Shown: positions 696 through 30,226 of the stretch, piece by piece
Position numbering within the stretch: the first letter of the stretch is position 1
Layout: the number at the start of each line of letters is the position of its first letter
Origin: a virus
Direction: 5' to 3' (one strand)
IMG/VR virus record: IMGVR_UViG_3300021599_001779
Span: 1-30,226 of that record
DNA length: 30,226 nt
Position numbers and translations under genes: made by a program
The notes under the pieces: model-generated
What the model was told of the DNA's origin: nothing
The model's input: the letters and a program-made list of their open reading frames with translations, nothing else
Database searches by the model: none

Positions 696-1034
696 TTAAA
701 TATGATCTTGGAAATCTTTGCCGTGCGTTTTTCTTTTATCAAGATAATCTTTTACAAACGCCAAATGGTCAAGAAGTCTATTTTTTTGTTTATCCATTAA
801 TTCGGAATCATTATTAATTTCGTTTTCAATTGAATCAAGGGTATTTGAAATGTCTGAAAGTTCTTGATCAGAAATATCATAATCTTCGATATGACCTGGA
901 TTTTCAGGATTAATACCCGCTAATCTTCTCCAAGGTTTTGTCATATTTTTTTCATATGTGTCCAGATCTTCTTTAATAACTCTTTTAACCAATCTTGTTA
1001 AATCTCTCTCCGTTAATCTTATAATTTTTGCCAT
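696..1034 (-). CDS. Small acidic protein with N-terminal [LI]xE leader; candidate packaged internal protein
   Basis: A 112-residue protein that I cannot name. Residues 1-22 (MAKIIRLTERDLTRLVKRVI, then KE) are a basic amphipathic segment almost identical to the start of the neighbour at 1111-1467. After residue 22 the two proteins have nothing in common. The remaining 90 residues are acidic and apparently helical, with heptad-like spacing around residues 55-95. The leader ends in I-K-E before D23. This fits the (L/I)-x-E cleavage rule of the T4 gp21 prohead protease, which removes capsid-targeting peptides from internal proteins. Start: ATG at 1034, no Shine-Dalgarno, with an ATATTTAT motif 16 bases upstream. 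It sits among replication genes but carries the promoter motif of the structural genes. The internal-protein role is inference. Confidence 0.75.
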   Translation of the reverse strand: MAKIIRLTERDLTRLVKRVIKEDLDTYEKNMTKPWRRLAGINPENPGHIEDYDISDQELSDISNTLDSIENEINNDSELMDKQKNRLLDHLAFVKDYLDKRKTHGKDFQDHI

Positions 1035-1079
1035 AATAATATTTTAAATATAAATATCATATAAAATAAAAAAACCCTC
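976..1079. repeat. Direct repeat copy 1: leader codons + 5' leader + promoter motif + terminator arm
   Basis: This 104-base segment matches 1409-1512 at a constant offset of 433 bases with about five mismatches that I can count. It covers the first ~20 codons of the 112-residue protein, its untranslated leader, the ATATTTAT motif and the first arm of the upstream gene's terminator. Similarity stops where the two protein bodies begin. Confidence 0.9.
1050..1057 (-). promoter_or_regulatory. Candidate late promoter motif ATATTTAT
   Basis: On the coding strand GATATTTATATTT lies 16 bases before the ATG at 1034. The same octamer, in sense orientation, precedes nine other genes in the window. Promoter function is inferred. 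Confidence 0.45.
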
Positions 1080-1094
1080 TTTTAAGGGAGGGGT
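1073..1094 (-). terminator. Hairpin terminator after the 118-residue leader protein gene
   Basis: CCCTC (1075-1079) pairs with GAGGG (1088-1092). On the minus strand the hairpin is followed by TTTTTTTATTTT. It lies just past the stop at 1111. The stem is short, so strength is uncertain. Confidence 0.5.
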
Positions 1095-1110
1095 GATATT
1101 GTTTTTATAT

Positions 1111-1467
1111 TTATGGTTTATATGGTTTTGGTTTGATATTATAATGAATCATTGATTTGGTTTTTTCAAATTCAGGATCTCTTTGTCTAATATAACGTTC
1201 TAAATGATCATACATCTCTCTATCAATAATACCATTTTCTTTTATAAAAGGATATTTTTTTCCGGGTCCAATGTCACCGGATTTATTTAAAATTTTTTGT
1301 ACTTCCAAAACATCATTATCCATCTTGGTTCCACTAAAATCAGGCCACATCCAATGATATGTATTATAAACTTGATATACCTTCATTGGTAATTTAGATT
1401 GCTCTTCTATAACTTGTTTAACCAATCTTGTTAAATCTCTTTCTGTTAATCTTATAATTTTTCCCAT
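1111..1467 (-). CDS. Small protein with the same N-terminal leader; weakly peptidoglycan-binding-like body
   Basis: A 118-residue protein without a family I can name firmly. Residues 1-22 (MGKIIRLTERDLTRLVKQVI, then EE) differ from the neighbour's leader at only three positions and end in I-E-E, a potential T4 gp21-type cleavage site. The body is unrelated to the neighbour. Residues about 50-95 contain DVLEVQKILNKSG and, after a gap, ENGIIDREMYDHLERYI. This recalls the layout of a peptidoglycan_binding_1 domain (VxxLQxxLN...DGxxGxxTxxAxxxF), but the match is weak and unproven. The start at 1467 has no Shine-Dalgarno; the leader, ATG context and ATATTTAT motif are part of the direct repeat. 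A hairpin terminator bounds it on each side, so it is probably expressed alone. Confidence 0.72.
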   Translation of the reverse strand: MGKIIRLTERDLTRLVKQVIEEQSKLPMKVYQVYNTYHWMWPDFSGTKMDNDVLEVQKILNKSGDIGPGKKYPFIKENGIIDREMYDHLERYIRQRDPEFEKTKSMIHYNIKPKPYKP

Positions 1468-1512
1468 AATAATATTTTAAATATAAATATCATATAAAAT
1501 AAAAAAACCCTC
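1409..1512. repeat. Direct repeat copy 2: leader codons + 5' leader + promoter motif + terminator arm
   Basis: Second copy of the 976-1079 segment. The untranslated part from the start codon to the ACCCTC terminator arm appears identical; mismatches are confined to the coding part. It serves the 118-residue gene. Confidence 0.9.
1483..1490 (-). promoter_or_regulatory. Candidate late promoter motif ATATTTAT
   Basis: Coding-strand GATATTTATATTT lies 16 bases before the ATG at 1467, as in the duplicated copy at 1050-1057. Function is inferred. Confidence 0.45.
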
Positions 1513-3501: not shown

Positions 3502-4149
3502 TTAAATTCCAAAATTCTTATTCATATCTATATTAAAAGAATCCCTAACTTCATCATTTGAGAAGTTTTCTACCTCATCTGCAGTTAACACATACTCATT
3601 TTTACCGGATTTTTGAATATCTTGTTGTTTGTCATCAAAGAAGTCTGTAAGTTTCTGATTAAAAGGACCTGAATCTAAACTTCTTAATTCTAATTTTTCT
3701 TGCGGAGTCTTAGGTCTTGATCTTTCCACCGCTTGTTCAAGTGAATTGATTTTATTAACTAAATTATCCATTTCTCCCAACTTTGCCTCAAGTTTTTGAA
3801 GTTGCCCAAATAACTCTTCAAAATAAGAATCTTGTTTTTCTTTCATGTCTTTTTGAGAAGTGACAAGTTCTGTAACATCTAGTTCTTCAGTATCTCCTTC
3901 ACCTTTTTCTTCTGATTCACCTTCGGCATCAACTTTTTCAACATCAGGATCGTTCTCAACATCAACAACTTCAGTCCCTCCGGTTGTTGCTCCTTCAGCT
4001 CCGGGAGCCGGTGGAACATCTCCTCCAGGAGGTGGTGGTGGAACTCCTAAATCTCCTCCGGGTGGAGGTGGTACATCTTGCTCAGATATATATCTATTAA
4101 TTTTTTTATATCTTTCTATTTCTGTTATAATTTTTTTATCAATACTCAT
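3502..4149 (-). CDS. Acidic Pro-rich coiled-coil protein with N-terminal leader; scaffold or internal-protein candidate
   Basis: A 215-residue protein with no named family. Residues 1-24 (MSIDKKIITEIERYKKINRY, then ISEQ) form a basic helix ending in I-S-E, another potential gp21-type cleavage site. Residues 25-50 are a proline/glycine linker with runs of four and five prolines. Residues 60-95 are very acidic. Residues about 100-150 are a predicted coiled coil (EELFGQLQKLEAKLGEMDNL). The C-terminal part has acidic helices. Composition and layout recall prohead core or scaffold proteins, but I cannot prove it. The start at 4149 lies 2 bases after the stop of the upstream 74-residue gene, so the two are almost certainly co-transcribed and perhaps translationally coupled. 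A strong terminator follows. Confidence 0.7.
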   Translation of the reverse strand: MSIDKKIITEIERYKKINRYISEQDVPPPPGGDLGVPPPPPGGDVPPAPGAEGATTGGTEVVDVENDPDVEKVDAEGESEEKGEGDTEELDVTELVTSQKDMKEKQDSYFEELFGQLQKLEAKLGEMDNLVNKINSLEQAVERSRPKTPQEKLELRSLDSGPFNQKLTDFFDDKQQDIQKSGKNEYVLTADEVENFSNDEVRDSFNIDMNKNFGI

Positions 4150-19320: not shown

Positions 19321-20112
19321 TTAATTATCTCCAGTATACTTAAATTTAACACGCTTACTTAAAAATTCATCTTCACTAGTCTTTTCAATATTCTTTAAAT
19401 CATCATCTGAAAATCCTATAAATGGTAAAAAGAAATTTTTAATATCATTTTTAATATATGCCTTTTTATTTAGTTCATGTGATAATTCTGTTACGTAATT
19501 AACAAACTTTTTGAGAGCCTTTACTTTTTCTTCTTCTGGGTTGGCTTCACTTCCTTTTCCAAAACTCACCGGATAAAATTGACATAAATCTAAATAAGAG
19601 TTTATAAGTTCCATATCCGACAAACTTTCCTCATCCATAAATTCCCTATATTTTTTAAGGTTTTTAACCAACTCGTTTTTATCAATACCATTTGTATTTG
19701 ATACTATATAATTATATACCGCCTCTTTTAAGACTGTCGGTGTGTGTCCTCTTGCTGTGATGATAGAAAAAATGGATCCATTATTTATACATTCTACAAA
19801 ATCACCCCATGAAGGTCCGGGTTCGGCTATCATGGCATCAATAATAAATCTTTTATCACCTTCTACCCTAAATTGAATGAAAGGATTTTCAGAATACCCA
19901 ACAATTTCTTCTCCTTCATAAAAAAAATTTTCTTTCCCTATGACTGACCTATATTTGGCGAAATCATCAGTTGACATCCCAATTTCTTTTCCTTCCTTAT
20001 TCTTTACCAATATTTTTGTTGGCATGTAAGCTATATTATCATCCCAATCGAAAGCATAATACTTAAGATCGGGTGTTTGGTCTTTGAATCCTTCAAATAA
20101 TTTTATTTTCAT
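19321..20112 (-). CDS. HAD-superfamily hydrolase encoded between sheath and tube genes
   Basis: A 263-residue protein. HAD motif I is YYAFDWDDN (nucleophile D22, acid D24), motif II is SIITARGHTP near residues 117-126, and the acidic GFSDDDLKN near residue 237 could be motif IV. Phosphatase-type chemistry on a nucleotide or polynucleotide end is possible (T4 Pnkp has a HAD domain), but the substrate cannot be read from sequence. The cap region, residues about 30-110, is unfamiliar. The N-terminus MKIKLFEGF includes L-F-E before G, a [LI]xE site like that of the other leaders, so packaging in the head is conceivable but speculative. An enzyme gene here is unusual: T4 places 18 and 19 side by side. 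It follows the sheath gene and its large terminator with no ATATTTAT of its own. Confidence 0.75.
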   Translation of the reverse strand: MKIKLFEGFKDQTPDLKYYAFDWDDNIAYMPTKILVKNKEGKEIGMSTDDFAKYRSVIGKENFFYEGEEIVGYSENPFIQFRVEGDKRFIIDAMIAEPGPSWGDFVECINNGSIFSIITARGHTPTVLKEAVYNYIVSNTNGIDKNELVKNLKKYREFMDEESLSDMELINSYLDLCQFYPVSFGKGSEANPEEEKVKALKKFVNYVTELSHELNKKAYIKNDIKNFFLPFIGFSDDDLKNIEKTSEDEFLSKRVKFKYTGDN

Positions 20113-24859: not shown

Positions 24860-25396
24860 TTATAGTTTTACATAATTAGTTCCGGGTATGAAATCTTTCG
24901 CATTATGTTTTGGTAAAAGAGTTCTCCAAGTATGACCAAATGTTTTTTCAAAGTGTGGTTTGTCTTTGAATGATTTCCAATCACCACCCCAATCCCAATT
25001 GTTTCTTTTTAGTATTTCAACCACCTCCATCCAATCTGATTTACCATCCTTATCAAAGTCAATATTATCTTCCCAAGTTGCAGAATCAAATTTTCCGTCA
25101 TTATTGGTGTCTTTAATTAAAACAATATCTAAAGCCAAACCGAAATTGTGGATTGACTGACCCCCTTTAGCTTTGGTAACGATTCCAAGTTTTTTACCAT
25201 TCGAATCAAACAATCTTGTTCTACCTTGTGCGTAAAGAGCATCTTGTTCCGCGAATGTTCTCAAGGTATATGCAAATCTACAGATTGCTTTTCCATTTAA
25301 TGCGGGAACAATCTGTGCCCTATAGATATAATCAACTTCTTCTCTTACAGCAGGATGTAATAATTTAATCCTGTCTAATGTGATTTTGTCTTCCAT
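24860..25396 (-). CDS. M15-family endolysin (VanY-like peptidase) with two calcium-loop motifs
   Basis: A 178-residue protein with the M15 zinc peptidase motifs: SIHNFGLALDI (S81, H83, D90) and PHFE (H148, E150), giving the zinc ligands H83, D90 and H148. Such enzymes cut L-Ala-D-Glu or D-Ala-D-Ala bonds in peptidoglycan and serve as phage endolysins. Between the two halves of the active site are two EF-hand-like loops, DTNNDGKFD (96-104) and DFDKDGKSD (113-121). The T5 endolysin, also M15, has a calcium-regulated loop in the equivalent place. There is no signal peptide or transmembrane helix, so release depends on a holin not seen here. It could also be virion-associated, since it sits in a structural operon between neck and tail-completion genes. 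Confidence 0.9.
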   Translation of the reverse strand: MEDKITLDRIKLLHPAVREEVDYIYRAQIVPALNGKAICRFAYTLRTFAEQDALYAQGRTRLFDSNGKKLGIVTKAKGGQSIHNFGLALDIVLIKDTNNDGKFDSATWEDNIDFDKDGKSDWMEVVEILKRNNWDWGGDWKSFKDKPHFEKTFGHTWRTLLPKHNAKDFIPGTNYVKL

Positions 25397-25401
25397 ATAT
25401 T

Positions 25402-25647
25402 TTATTTTTTAATTTCCGCATCAACTCTCCATACCTCGTTCCCACGACTGAGAAGTATTCTCAACCCGGGATATTTTTGTTGGAGACGTTTAGCCCATTC
25501 TATCGCTTTGGTCTTACCGATTGAGTAAGATTTTACTCTATCTTCACTATAGAAATCATCAAGTTGTTCTTTTGGTGTCTTTGTGATTTCTTCCTCCTCT
25601 TCCTTAAGGATTCTTTTATATTGTGTTTCAGTTATTTTTATTCTCAT
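25402..25647 (-). CDS. Small protein with N-terminal [LI]xE leader
   Basis: An 81-residue protein, no family recognised. It begins MRIKITETQYKRILKEEEEE: a basic-hydrophobic segment with L-K-E at residues 14-16, similar in type to the leaders of the proteins at 696-1034 and 1111-1467 but not a recent copy. The body (residues 25-81) looks like a compact alpha/beta fold with SIGKTKAIEWAKRLQQKYPG, then LRILLSRGNEVWRVDAEI. It overlaps the upstream neck candidate by 4 bases (ATGA-type overlap) and is followed 5 bases later by the endolysin, so it belongs to this late operon. A packaged head protein is one possibility. Confidence 0.7.
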   Translation of the reverse strand: MRIKITETQYKRILKEEEEEITKTPKEQLDDFYSEDRVKSYSIGKTKAIEWAKRLQQKYPGLRILLSRGNEVWRVDAEIKK

Positions 25648-26159
25648 AATCCTCTAAATTCATTTTGACTTACAGGCGCCGCCACTATAGTCCTATAAAA
25701 AGGTTTATATCCTGCGTAAGTATGTTTATTATCTGAAACAACCCTTCCGTCATTTGCAACCACATAATATCTAACCCTTGTTTCAGTTTCATAATACCCG
25801 ATGTAATCACCGAGTTCTATGTCTATATTTAGTTCCTCTAAATGTTTTTGATACACGGATATTCTAACATTACCGGGTTCCGTTTGACCCAAGTTTGTTT
25901 TACTCCCCAACATTTTATTTTCCGGAGCCATAACCTGAATAAACGCTTTAAATTCAACCGGAGGAAGATATTTTATACCATCCGGTACGGTTTCACCATA
26001 AACATCATCGGTTTTGGTTTTATATCTATCTATTCTATACAACACACAGGTAAAATTCATATCCCCCTCCAACCACTCTCTACCCATACCAATGTCTAAA
26101 GAATAATCTTCACCACCAAAAAACTTACCAAGTCGTGTTATAGGAACCTTTTTTTCCAT
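25644..26159 (-). CDS. Neck / head-closure protein candidate (gp14-like)
   Basis: 171 residues from the ATG at 26159 (MEKKVPITRLGKFFGG). A longer frame reaches a GTG or TTG near 26225 but would run across the promoter motif, so the ATG is preferred. The protein is beta-rich: FTCVLYRIDRYKTKTDD, VRISVYQKHLEELNIDIELG, then DYIGYYETETRVRYYVVAND and KPFYRTIVAAPVSQNEF. The 'G-D-x-I-x-Y' strand followed by a 'KPFYR' C-terminal strand is seen in head-closure and neck proteins, and the neighbours (gp15-like, gp13-like across the divergent gap) fit a neck cluster. I could not align it convincingly to T4 gp14, so the name is tentative. It is the first gene of a four-gene operon with stop/start overlaps. 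Confidence 0.5.
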   Translation of the reverse strand: MEKKVPITRLGKFFGGEDYSLDIGMGREWLEGDMNFTCVLYRIDRYKTKTDDVYGETVPDGIKYLPPVEFKAFIQVMAPENKMLGSKTNLGQTEPGNVRISVYQKHLEELNIDIELGDYIGYYETETRVRYYVVANDGRVVSDNKHTYAGYKPFYRTIVAAPVSQNEFRGL

Positions 26160-26163
26160 ATTG

Positions 26164-26171
26164 ATAAATAT
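26164..26171 (-). promoter_or_regulatory. Candidate late promoter motif ATATTTAT, start-proximal
   Basis: Coding-strand AAAGATATTTATCAATATGG: only 4 bases separate the motif from the ATG at 26159. If the motif is a -10 element, the message would be leaderless or start inside the gene. Confidence 0.42.
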
Positions 26172-26182
26172 CTTTAATTGTG

Positions 26183-26193
26183 TTATCTTTATA
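26183..26193 (+). promoter_or_regulatory. Possible promoter motif TTATCTTTATA before the helicase
   Basis: Plus-strand GTTATCTTTATATAAAAAG differs at two positions from the TTATACTTATA motif of the exonuclease and gene 32. It lies 57 bases before the helicase ATG, in the 90-base divergent region. Confidence 0.25.
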
Positions 26194-26249
26194 TAAAAAG
26201 TTTTTTTTTGGAAAATGGAGCACATTTAATTGAGAGAAAGGCGCTTGAT

Positions 26250-27299
26250 ATGATTGAGTCATATTCAGGTTCAAATAACTATATCCTAAAGATTCAGCAC
26301 CAACAGAGCATCAATAAGAAATTTTATCCTACCCGATCTCAATCTGAATACATATTAACTTTTCACGACACAAAACCAAAGGTTGCAAAAAAATGGGTTG
26401 AACTTGACCCATATTTTGCAAACAAGATTTCTGATGAAAAGTTATATACAAAGGTTCCGGATCAAGTTTGGGTTGAGAAATTATTGGTTGAAAAAGAAAA
26501 AGCATATCACATTTGGGGTAAGTTCTTTTCCGGTGAAACTAACCACGAATTTTGGTTACCAAAGTCCGCATTAATTAAAACTCACACGATAGAAAAGGTT
26601 GATATTGATTATTCAAAATATGATCATAGACCTCCTTTATCACATCAGAAGGAAGCAATTGAGAAATTGGTTGGCAGTAAAAGATTTATCTTGGCAGATG
26701 ATATGGGATTGGGTAAGACCACATCCACAATCATTGCTGCGCTTGAAACCGGAGCGAAAAAGATTTTAATTATTTGTCCGGCATCCCTTAAGATCAACTG
26801 GCAAAGGGAAATTTCAAATTATAGTGATAGAAGTGTTTATATCTCTGAAGGTAAAAACTTCTCAACTGAACACGACTTTGTTATTATTAATTACGATATC
26901 ATTAAAAACTTTTATGATACCAAAGACAAAGAAAACTCTCTGATTTATAAATCAAACTTTGATTTAATTATTATTGATGAAGCACATTACCTTCAGAATA
27001 CACAAGCCCAAAGAACCAAACTTGTTAATTCTTTTGCAAAGAAGGCTAACAGATTATGGTTATTAACCGGGACACCGATGACTTCACGACCAATTAACTA
27101 TTTTAACTTACTAAACCTTATTGAATCCCCTGTTGCACAAAATTGGATGGCCTATGTCATAAGATACTGTGAGGGATATCAGTTTAGAGTTGGAGGTAAT
27201 AGAAAAATTTGGAATACAAATGGTGCTTCTAACTTGGAAGAGTTAAGAGACAGAACTTCAAAACAAGTATTAAGAAGATTGAAGAATCTTCATCTTTGA
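26250..27299 (+). CDS. SNF2-family helicase, N-terminal ATPase half (broken gene, part 1)
   Basis: 349 residues from the ATG at 26250, which has AAAGG 8 bases upstream; an upstream TTG in frame is not preferred. Helicase motifs: I = DDMGLGKTTSTI (residues about 150-161), II = IIIDEAHYL (about 240-248), III = LLTGTPMTSRP (about 270-280), with LRRLK at about 343-347. This is RecA domain 1 of the SNF2/HARP type, often found in phages for fork remodelling. The frame then meets a TGA after NLHL. The second half continues one base out of phase in the next entry. Family members have roughly 100 residues between RRLK and the KVIIF motif; only about 40 are here, so about 60 residues appear to be missing, together with the frame change. 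Confidence 0.82.
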   Translation: MIESYSGSNNYILKIQHQQSINKKFYPTRSQSEYILTFHDTKPKVAKKWVELDPYFANKISDEKLYTKVPDQVWVEKLLVEKEKAYHIWGKFFSGETNHEFWLPKSALIKTHTIEKVDIDYSKYDHRPPLSHQKEAIEKLVGSKRFILADDMGLGKTTSTIIAALETGAKKILIICPASLKINWQREISNYSDRSVYISEGKNFSTEHDFVIINYDIIKNFYDTKDKENSLIYKSNFDLIIIDEAHYLQNTQAQRTKLVNSFAKKANRLWLLTGTPMTSRPINYFNLLNLIESPVAQNWMAYVIRYCEGYQFRVGGNRKIWNTNGASNLEELRDRTSKQVLRRLKNLHL

Positions 27300-27850
27300 C
27301 GGTTCAGTTTTCAAAATTAATGAAAATCAGACAGGTGATTGCCGAAGAAAAAGTTTCATCAACAATTGAACTTGCGGAGAACATTATTGAACAGGGAAAG
27401 AAAGTTATTATATTCACAAACTTCACCAACACTCTTAAAACTTTACTTGAACACTTCGGTAAGAAAGCGGTTGGTCTTGATGGGTCCTCTTCTAAAGTAG
27501 AAAGACAAAATGCGGTAGATCAGTTTCAAGAGAACGATAAACTCCAAGTATTTGTAGGAAACATTAAAGCCGCAGGTGTTGGTATTACATTAACTTCTGC
27601 TGAGGCGGTTATAATGAATGACTTATCATTTGTTCCATCCGATCATAGTCAGGCCGAAGATAGAGCTTACAGATACGGACAAAAATCAAATGTGTCAGTT
27701 TATTACCCCATATTTGAAAATACGATAGAAGGTGTCATCTACGACATGCTAATGAAAAAGAAAAACATATTTGAAACTGTAATGGGTGATAATATGGATA
27801 AGGGGGACTTCGTGGAGGAAGTTATGAATTTAATTAACAATAGATCATAA
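27296..27850 (+). CDS. SNF2-family helicase, C-terminal half (broken gene, part 2)
   Basis: 184 codons from a TTG overlapping the first part's stop; the first ATG in frame is at 27320. Domain 2 motifs: KKVIIFTNFTNTL, GLDGSSSKVERQNAVDQF, VGNIKAAGVGITLTSAEAVI, then SQAEDRAYRYGQ (motif VI with both arginines). The frame is open further upstream, overlapping the first part (EESSSLTVQFSKLMKIRQ). It thus reads as the remainder of one helicase after a deletion with frame change near 27280. If the ATG at 27320 is used, a stand-alone C-terminal domain could be made and pair with part 1. More likely the gene is damaged, or the assembly is. Confidence 0.8.
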   Translation: MTVQFSKLMKIRQVIAEEKVSSTIELAENIIEQGKKVIIFTNFTNTLKTLLEHFGKKAVGLDGSSSKVERQNAVDQFQENDKLQVFVGNIKAAGVGITLTSAEAVIMNDLSFVPSDHSQAEDRAYRYGQKSNVSVYYPIFENTIEGVIYDMLMKKKNIFETVMGDNMDKGDFVEEVMNLINNRS

Positions 27851-28999: not shown

Positions 29000-29335
29000 A
29001 TGCCAGTAATAAGAAACACACCATCACAAAGAGTCGTGAATGGTAACATCGTTAACACATCTGAAACCGCAATTGTTTCAGATTCCTCCTTCAGAACCAA
29101 AGGAGAAGGTATTGTTATAGTTAAACAAATTGATTTTTGTAAAATCAGTTTGGATCATTCAACAACAGATCATATAACAATCAAAGCCCTAACAAAAGTT
29201 TTAATCCAACCAATTATCGGGCTTATTGATGACGAATATCAGGAAATGGAAATTGATAAGGGTGCTTGTGTTGAACTTGCATACTGTGCGGGTAACTGGT
29301 ACATTATGAGCTCAGATGGGTTAAAATTTAGTTGA
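29000..29335 (+). CDS. Hypothetical 111-residue beta-rich protein, neck operon
   Basis: Not recognised. It starts 3 bases after the neck gene stop, so it is co-transcribed with it. The sequence alternates short hydrophobic strands (EGIVIVKQIDFCKISLD, TIKALTKVLIQPIIG) and ends with ACVELAYCAGNWYIMSSDGL, a beta-hairpin-like strand pair with two cysteines and a tryptophan. No helices of note, no signal peptide. A small virion decoration or neck-collar protein is plausible given the operon, but unproven. Its last 8 bases overlap, tail to tail, the end of the DNA polymerase gene on the other strand. Confidence 0.65.
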   Translation: MPVIRNTPSQRVVNGNIVNTSETAIVSDSSFRTKGEGIVIVKQIDFCKISLDHSTTDHITIKALTKVLIQPIIGLIDDEYQEMEIDKGACVELAYCAGNWYIMSSDGLKFS

Positions 29336-30226
29336 TAAATTCTTCCCATCCTTCTACAGCCATTTCATACATATAATCCGGTTTCAAACCACGTCTTTCC
29401 CAATACGCGACTTCGGCTTCAGACATATTCAACACTTCATCCAAACTATCTTGATCCTTTTCATCAAATGGATGTCCGTTAATAAGTTCACATTGTGATG
29501 ATGTGAATAGACCCCTTTCATCAGGATTCTCAACCAATAATGAATTTCTAATCTCATCTTTGAATACGACAAGTAATGGTTCAATCCTTTTATTGAAAAC
29601 GGATATTGCTCTTGGAACATTATAATCTCCGGTCATATTTGGATTTTCTTCAATCGTTTTTGAATCCAACATATAACAATTAATCTGAACAAACCCTTCG
29701 GGCATTTCTTTTCCGGCCTTTGTTTTCTGTGTTGACCTTTTCTTATAATCCTCCATTGATAACTTAACCTTGGCTCTTTGAGCAATCTTCATAAGTGGAA
29801 TCTCCTTGTTGTGAATCTTGGTTAGATATTCATAATACCACTCAACAAACTCTTGTCCCTTTCCTTCCAATAACATCTTAACACCTTTGTCCAAGAAGTC
29901 CTCAATATAAAGGGGAAGTTTTTTTGATTTGATTGTATTACCGGTGAGTTTAACTTTACCTTTCGCGTCCATAACCGCATAGTTCTTACGAGCAAGGTTG
30001 ATACACGAAGGCCAAGTTCCGTCAGTATCAAGTGCCATTTCACCTCTCATAAACATATCATTAAATTCGGCCACATCTGCGTTATCACCAGTATACTCCT
30101 TACCCTCTTTAACCTTCCAATTTAGACCTTTCCCTATATACCTTCTATTCTCCCACCCTTCAGGTTTGGAGAAGTTTACACCATCCGTATCCATCACCAG
30201 AGGGGTATATCCTCTCTTCATAAAGA
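29328..30226 (-). CDS. Family B DNA polymerase, C-terminal part (N-terminus beyond window)
   Basis: The frame is open to the right edge, giving about 299 residues of the C-terminus. Palm motif C is LVMDTDGVNF, where most family B enzymes have YxDTDS. It is followed 70-80 residues later by CINLARKNYAVMDAKGKVKL, the K-x-Y motif that contacts the primer terminus. TGNTIKSKKLPLYIEDFLDK (about residues 92-111) starts the thumb, as in T4 gp43. The remainder is a charged thumb domain ending GWEEFIN, without an obvious clamp-binding peptide at the very end. It is the replicative polymerase of a T4-type replisome with the SSB, recombinase and exonuclease at the other end of the window. The apparent ATG at 30221 is internal and not a start. 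Confidence 0.88.
   Translation of the reverse strand, partial: FMKRGYTPLVMDTDGVNFSKPEGWENRRYIGKGLNWKVKEGKEYTGDNADVAEFNDMFMRGEMALDTDGTWPSCINLARKNYAVMDAKGKVKLTGNTIKSKKLPLYIEDFLDKGVKMLLEGKGQEFVEWYYEYLTKIHNKEIPLMKIAQRAKVKLSMEDYKKRSTQKTKAGKEMPEGFVQINCYMLDSKTIEENPNMTGDYNVPRAISVFNKRIEPLLVVFKDEIRNSLLVENPDERGLFTSSQCELINGHPFDEKDQDSLDEVLNMSEAEVAYWERRGLKPDYMYEMAVEGWEEFIN

Follow-up and report, generated by a model that had tools for sequence, protein, structure and literature searches.

What could lead two neighbouring genes of an uncultured phage to begin with almost the same 22 residues and then to encode entirely unrelated proteins? The genes in question lie on the minus strand at 696-1034 and 1111-1467 of a 30,226-base IMG/VR contig (the window, by which we mean the whole stretch of DNA analysed). 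The window is a fragment of a T4-like phage, coding for a UvsX-like recombinase, a gp19-like tube protein, a sheath protein and large baseplate-like proteins. By UvsX comparison its closest named phages are the Flavobacterium phages 'immuto' (37%), and several uncultured large contigs are far nearer: a 317-kb contig, G001, whose UvsX stands at 82%, also encodes homologues of the window's HAD-like protein (61%) and of the proteins at 25644-26225 (67%) and 29328-30221 (56%). Pfam matches of window proteins to TelA and FTA4 were weak, below the curated cut-offs, and were rejected. A helicase-like gene apparently occupies two plus-strand ORFs with a 4-base overlap (26178-27299 and 27296-27850), reflecting a frameshift, a sequencing error or a true split.

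A sequence-only reading of the window had described the shared 22-residue start and the unrelated bodies behind it, and both hold: 19 of the 22 N-terminal residues are identical (BLASTP E = 3e-10), and BLASTP detects no similarity beyond residue 22. The leader of the first protein, MAKIIRLTERDLTRLVKRVIKE (969-1034, minus strand), is recognized by its identity with the neighbouring leader, by profile A1 and by matches in viral contigs; that of the second, MGKIIRLTERDLTRLVKQVIEE (1402-1467, minus strand), by the same identity and by the loci retrieved with a DNA pattern. The predicted cut falls after E22 in both. The 90-residue body of the first protein (696-968) is mostly helical in a low-confidence single-sequence AlphaFold2 model (pLDDT 63) and has no confident Pfam match; the 96-residue body of the second (1111-1401) is unrelated to it, matches no Pfam family, gave an unusable model (pLDDT 39) and has no relatives in viral contigs except in a near-identical contig. 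A fold search from the two models was discarded, the models being too poor. At the DNA level the common block comprises the leader and the 45 nt directly upstream (1035-1079 and 1468-1512, minus strand), which hold a terminator end and an AT-rich 5' region; a single upstream and leader cassette has thus been duplicated and joined to two bodies. The positions and leader endings that the reading had listed for these and other window proteins (IKE, IEE, LKE and ISE, and LFE at residues 5-7 of the HAD-like protein) are likewise correct, as is its caution that so short a motif invites chance matches. A lone [LI]xE is frequent, at about 0.012 per residue, so isolated cases are weak evidence and it is conservation that carries the argument.

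Such conservation is apparent across viral contigs. A degenerate DNA pattern over leader residues 4-16, with residues 17-22 unconstrained, retrieved 65 loci of this class A leader, each with a start codon 3-6 residues away, corresponding to 49 distinct proteins with differing bodies. An aliphatic-x-E ending, which the pattern did not ask for, stands at or near position 22 in 48 of the 49; glutamate occupies the residue-22 column itself in 42, P3 being mostly I or V; of the remaining seven, six belong to a longer 'DLHRLVKESV..' variant that also ends in aliphatic-x-E, and the sole exception (L043) is a 25-residue ORF. Conservation drops off directly past this ending. The longer form (IIRLTESDLHRLVKESVxxILxE), found in a sub-clade (G012, L011, L030, L037, L042, L045, L065), gains four residues, equal to one helical turn, and retains the aliphatic-x-E end. 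Synonymous codons vary freely across phages, whereas the leader residues are retained, which indicates that selection acts on the protein. Among 84,980 genomes of bacteria and archaea none matched the DNA pattern, and tblastn, a weak instrument for diverged 23-mers, found no class A leader in named phages. The literature searched, with subscription journals and preprints outside its scope, yielded no published report of these leaders, nor did the literature searched yield virion proteomics of phages that bear them.

The class A leader, MKKIIRLTESDLTRLVKRVIKE, is one of four. Prompted by N-terminal families in the gene list of one related contig (G011), we defined classes A-D by regular expressions and profiles, the others being class B (MNLQESIRRILRE), class C (MK(I/Y)IITExQYxRL..) and class D (MNLQEEIxRIKxMMG(x)LxE). 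Among unique proteins, [LI]xE follows closely on the class core in 89% of class A, 84% of class D, 59% of class C, where about 40% of N-termini have no such motif past the core, and 97% of class B, a value inflated partly by construction, many B loci having been retrieved by a pattern containing the E; farther downstream in the same proteins the figure is 16-20%, and [LI]xD is not enriched after the core. Information falls away after P1, and P2 varies more than P3 and P1, although these two were fixed by the motif search in that analysis, unlike in the class A search over residues 4-16. When 150 representative leader proteins are aligned with MAFFT, conservation is likewise confined to the leader. 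A search for further N-termini of the same kind, proposed in the sequence-only reading, found them in abundance: the class profiles assign leaders to 39 of the 214 ORFs of G003, 35 of the 186 of G011, 24 of the 88 of the G027 fragment and 19 of the 387 of G001, or 19-39 genes per related phage. T4, 100 kb of immuto and 50 kb of the crAss-like phage phi14:2 gave none. Over all ORFs of G003, G011 and G027, [LI]xE is over-represented about 2-3.5-fold at residues 5-20, part of the excess arising because the leaders' own (L/I)TE matches too. A short conserved N-terminal segment, carried by unrelated bodies and ending in [LI]xE (in class C at 59%), is what would be expected of a capsid-targeting propeptide of the T4 type. 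Classes A and C also hold an internal [LI]TE (LTE at residues 7-9 and ITE at residues 5-7, respectively) resembling the site, ITE-6, at which T4 Alt is cut, and a second, earlier cut is therefore possible.

Other proteins of the window, all on the minus strand, carry predicted cut sites of the same form. The protein at 25402-25647 starts with a class C leader, MRIKITETQYKRILKE (25600-25647; next residue E), assigned through the class C profile and the class statistics; its 65-residue body (25402-25599) belongs to no Pfam family and has no relatives except in near-identical contigs, and the case for its leader is thus made at the level of the class. Directly downstream lies a leaderless Peptidase M15 (VanY-like) protein (24860-25396, minus strand); one VanY-domain protein of the leader set, unlike this one, does bear a leader. 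In the conserved protein at 3502-4149 the N-terminal segment MSIDKKIITEIERYKKINRYISE (4081-4149) leads to a predicted cut at YISE|Q, and in the predicted mature part (3502-4080) an acidic region comes after a Pro-rich linker. All 33 distinct homologues have [ILV]-x-E-Q ahead of a Pro- or Ala-rich linker, with a hypervariable P2 (mostly M, N, L, T or Y). The HAD-like protein, so labelled in the sequence-only reading, begins with the seven-residue leader MKIKLFE (20092-20112; predicted cut LFE|G). Its body (19321-20091) has no Pfam match and its homologues have a conserved YYAFDWDDN motif; distinct homologues have leaders of 5 to about 20 residues, and in all of them the junction carries [LIV]xE, with G next in nearly every case. 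With an aliphatic P3, a free P2 and Glu at P1, both N-termini behave as protease sites would be expected to.

The leaders are also exchanged between bodies. Homologous bodies occur behind different leaders, with the junction at the [LI]xE codon and DNA homology beginning at that junction. A class A protein reading ...LVKRVINE|GLHDTSWQNDEGDK (L289) and a class D protein reading ...IQSMMGVINE|GLHDTSWENEEGDK (L339) have bodies 84% identical and the same junction, INE|GLHDTSW; another class A protein, ...LVKRVINE|SDPKDGTGKK (L271), which resembles L289 upstream and in the leader, has its counterpart in a B-like one, ...RLLRKYLVE|SDPKVGTGKK (L364). Pairs of lower identity combine classes A and C (L014, L328), C and D (L199, L343) and B and D (L270, L368). 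Such swaps, falling exactly at [LI]xE, support the view of the leader as a removable tag. In L270 (3608-5158, plus strand) two class B leaders stand in tandem (MNLQQTIRKILRE|EFKSHNNLQETVRKVLRE|..) ahead of a body found elsewhere behind a class D leader.

A removable tag calls to mind the prohead protease gp21 of T4, which cuts at L/I-x-E, and T4 gp23, which loses a 65-residue propeptide (PMC9026906). T4 Alt is cut at ITE-6 (PMC5694885), and packaging of IPIII needs just its first 10 residues, the capsid-targeting sequence (PMC9026906); MKTYQEFIAE opens two internal-protein ORFs of T4, and MELITE opens Alt. The sequence-only reading had made its proposal depend on a gp21-like protease gene, and this was borne out in relatives with a head module and not in the window itself, a 30-kb fragment without that module. 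A profile search for Peptidase_S77 (PF03420), with T4 and immuto as positive controls, located the protease in 15 of the 28 contigs that bear leaders, with scores of 77-89 bits where the curated cut-off is 27; neither the window contig nor any of 15 related contigs, all of them fragments no longer than 70 kb, contains it. All 12 leader contigs found with a Gp23 capsid gene also have S77, and among contigs searched for both genes those without S77 are also without Gp23, so that the two are missing together, as fragments would show; several of these contigs are closely related, and the counts do not represent independent events. The catalytic residues H85, S140 and D168, numbered as in T4, do not vary among 14 leader phages, T4 and immuto. 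The cleavage site of the major capsid protein is conserved as well: T4 gp23 L63-T64-E65|A66 aligns with [LI]xE|[AS] in 12 of 12 leader-phage capsid proteins, the same column holding VSE|A in immuto and LRE|S in T4 gp24. P1' is mostly Q, N, S, E or D in the leaders as against A or S in the capsid protein, and an excess of [LI]xE in the scaffold-like gene is significant in only one (G001) of three genomes.

We conclude from the sequence comparisons that the leaders are very probably cleaved capsid-targeting propeptides of the gp21 type, a system like that of the T4 internal proteins but greatly enlarged; the earlier proposal that they are packaging tags is thereby supported by the leader as a module, by its ending in [LI]xE, by the swaps at that end, and by the protease and capsid motif in relatives. 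The leader segment would bind the scaffold core during head assembly and bring the protein into the prohead, where the gp21-family (Peptidase S77) protease would cut past the terminal glutamate of [LI]-x-E; the freed body would stay inside the head and exit with the DNA on infection.

Might the leader instead be retained, as an uncleaved helix docking on a partner in the head, tail or scaffold, its [LI]xE being the C-terminal turn of the helix? The regular, basic and amphipathic character of class A, with few exceptions, would suit such a role, as would the helix at residues 9-23 in the low-confidence model of the 1111-1467 protein. A helix turn, however, would hardly lead four classes and the very short leaders of the HAD-like proteins to end in one P3-x-P1 signature with P2 free, nor would it preserve the aliphatic-x-E end in the class A variant longer by four residues; moreover, the swaps fall at the predicted scissile position, and the gp23 cut site has the identical motif. 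We therefore regard a docking helix as improbable.

The bodies bear on the destination of the leader proteins. Few of the 150 representative leader proteins match any Pfam family; those that do include PG_binding_1, LysM, Tae4 amidase, VanY, phage lysozyme, HD, P-loop kinase-like, ART-PolyVal and ArdA, and PHROGs adds endolysin and transglycosylase families. In the proteins checked the domain starts after the leader, at residue 28 (L035), 64 (L235) and 87 (L108). PADLOC gave eight weak, single matches, which were set aside. One body cluster, drawn by BLAST linkage, accounts for 177 of 544 leader proteins and occurs under all four classes (in G011, G003, G001 and L270-L377), many of its members having an RRR motif soon past the leader. 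The lytic-enzyme bodies are compatible with enzymes of entry and with other roles too, since cell-wall enzymes could act at lysis, and the ArdA- and ART-like bodies would fit a part in early take-over of the host. The peptidoglycan-binding, LysM, lysozyme, amidase and VanY domains might equally suggest that the leader targets the host envelope, or else the replication compartment or the tail, with the co-occurrence of S77 reflecting merely the common descent of T4-like phages. Yet the leaders have no hydrophobic core like that of a Sec signal, their [LI]xE agrees with the motif that these same phages have at the capsid-protein site, and T4-like immuto has S77 and none of the leader classes, so that common ancestry alone does not bring leaders; a destination other than the head is accordingly still less probable than a docking helix.

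The sequence-only reading had counted late-type promoters in favour of packaging, a point that did not survive: the T4-type late promoter TATAAATA precedes 3-12% of leader genes and 8% of other genes, and is not enriched. Terminator-like GGGTTTT runs, by contrast with other genes, are about 3-4-fold enriched before leader genes (for example at 1035-1110 and 1468-1530 of the window), suggesting that many leader genes are transcribed singly. That the shared start is a recent gene conversion or duplication of promoter, 5'UTR and start codons, retained for expression rather than protein function, is very unlikely, for although the window pair has 45 nt upstream and the leader DNA in common, and L271 and L289 are alike over the same parts, across phages the residues are conserved while synonymous codons differ, and homology stops at the E codon.

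Only the cleaved propeptide accounts at once for the N-terminal position, the unrelated bodies, the P3-x-P1 end, the swaps, and the protease with its capsid site; each rival accounts for part. On this basis we infer packaging, cleavage and injection, and effector or anti-defence roles for the bodies. We further lean, if only slightly, towards a broader reading, in which at least four interchangeable tags ending in a prohead-protease motif constitute an open-ended loading code that sends up to about 15-25% of phage genes into the head for injection, mostly proteins of unknown nature but including cell-wall enzymes and a handful of proteins that resemble antirestriction proteins or ADP-ribosyltransferases. 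The proteins injected by large phages are mostly unknown, and they are the first answer to host defences; if the proposal is true, the tag by itself would suffice to list phage effectors from sequence. A tag readable in the sequence would turn hundreds of anonymous genes of uncultured phages into testable candidates for head-packaged proteins, and the leaders would be new short modular loading peptides, comparable with the single well-studied tag of T4.

How far does the parallel with known systems extend? In T4, IPI-III and their capsid-targeting sequence (Mullaney and Black 1996; PMC9026906) likewise combine a short N-terminal propeptide ending in [LI]xE (MKTYQEFIAE), one tag on unrelated bodies, a gp21-type protease and a matching capsid cut site, but T4 shows a single main type of tag on three IP genes, whereas the leader phages have at least four classes, tags of 5-24 residues, 19-39 leader genes each and swapped tags. 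Profile A1 has no match in T4 and classes A-D none in its ORFs; the resemblance would thus be functional, with no common descent implied. T4 Alt, an ADP-ribosyltransferase, has a very short propeptide, MELITE, reminiscent of the HAD leader MKIKLFE and of (I)ITE in class C, although its body differs from those of the leader proteins. The ejection proteins of the giant phages phiKZ and SPN3US are, as the leader proteins would be, numerous, head-packaged, protease-trimmed and injected; in those phages, however, the prohead protease is of family S80 and the propeptides are mostly long, several over 100 residues (PMC5694885), in contrast to S77 and short tags here. A further parallel is with the hypervariable IP loci of T-even phages with their anti-GmrSD proteins (PMC12373910, PMC9391042), where T4 Ip1-3 block type IV restriction (PMC12373910): there too the leader alone is common to the bodies, and the gene content is accessory, variable and likely arms-race cargo, although most leader-phage bodies match no family. 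The principle is that of the T4 internal proteins and is known; what is new is the much enlarged scale and the variety of tags.
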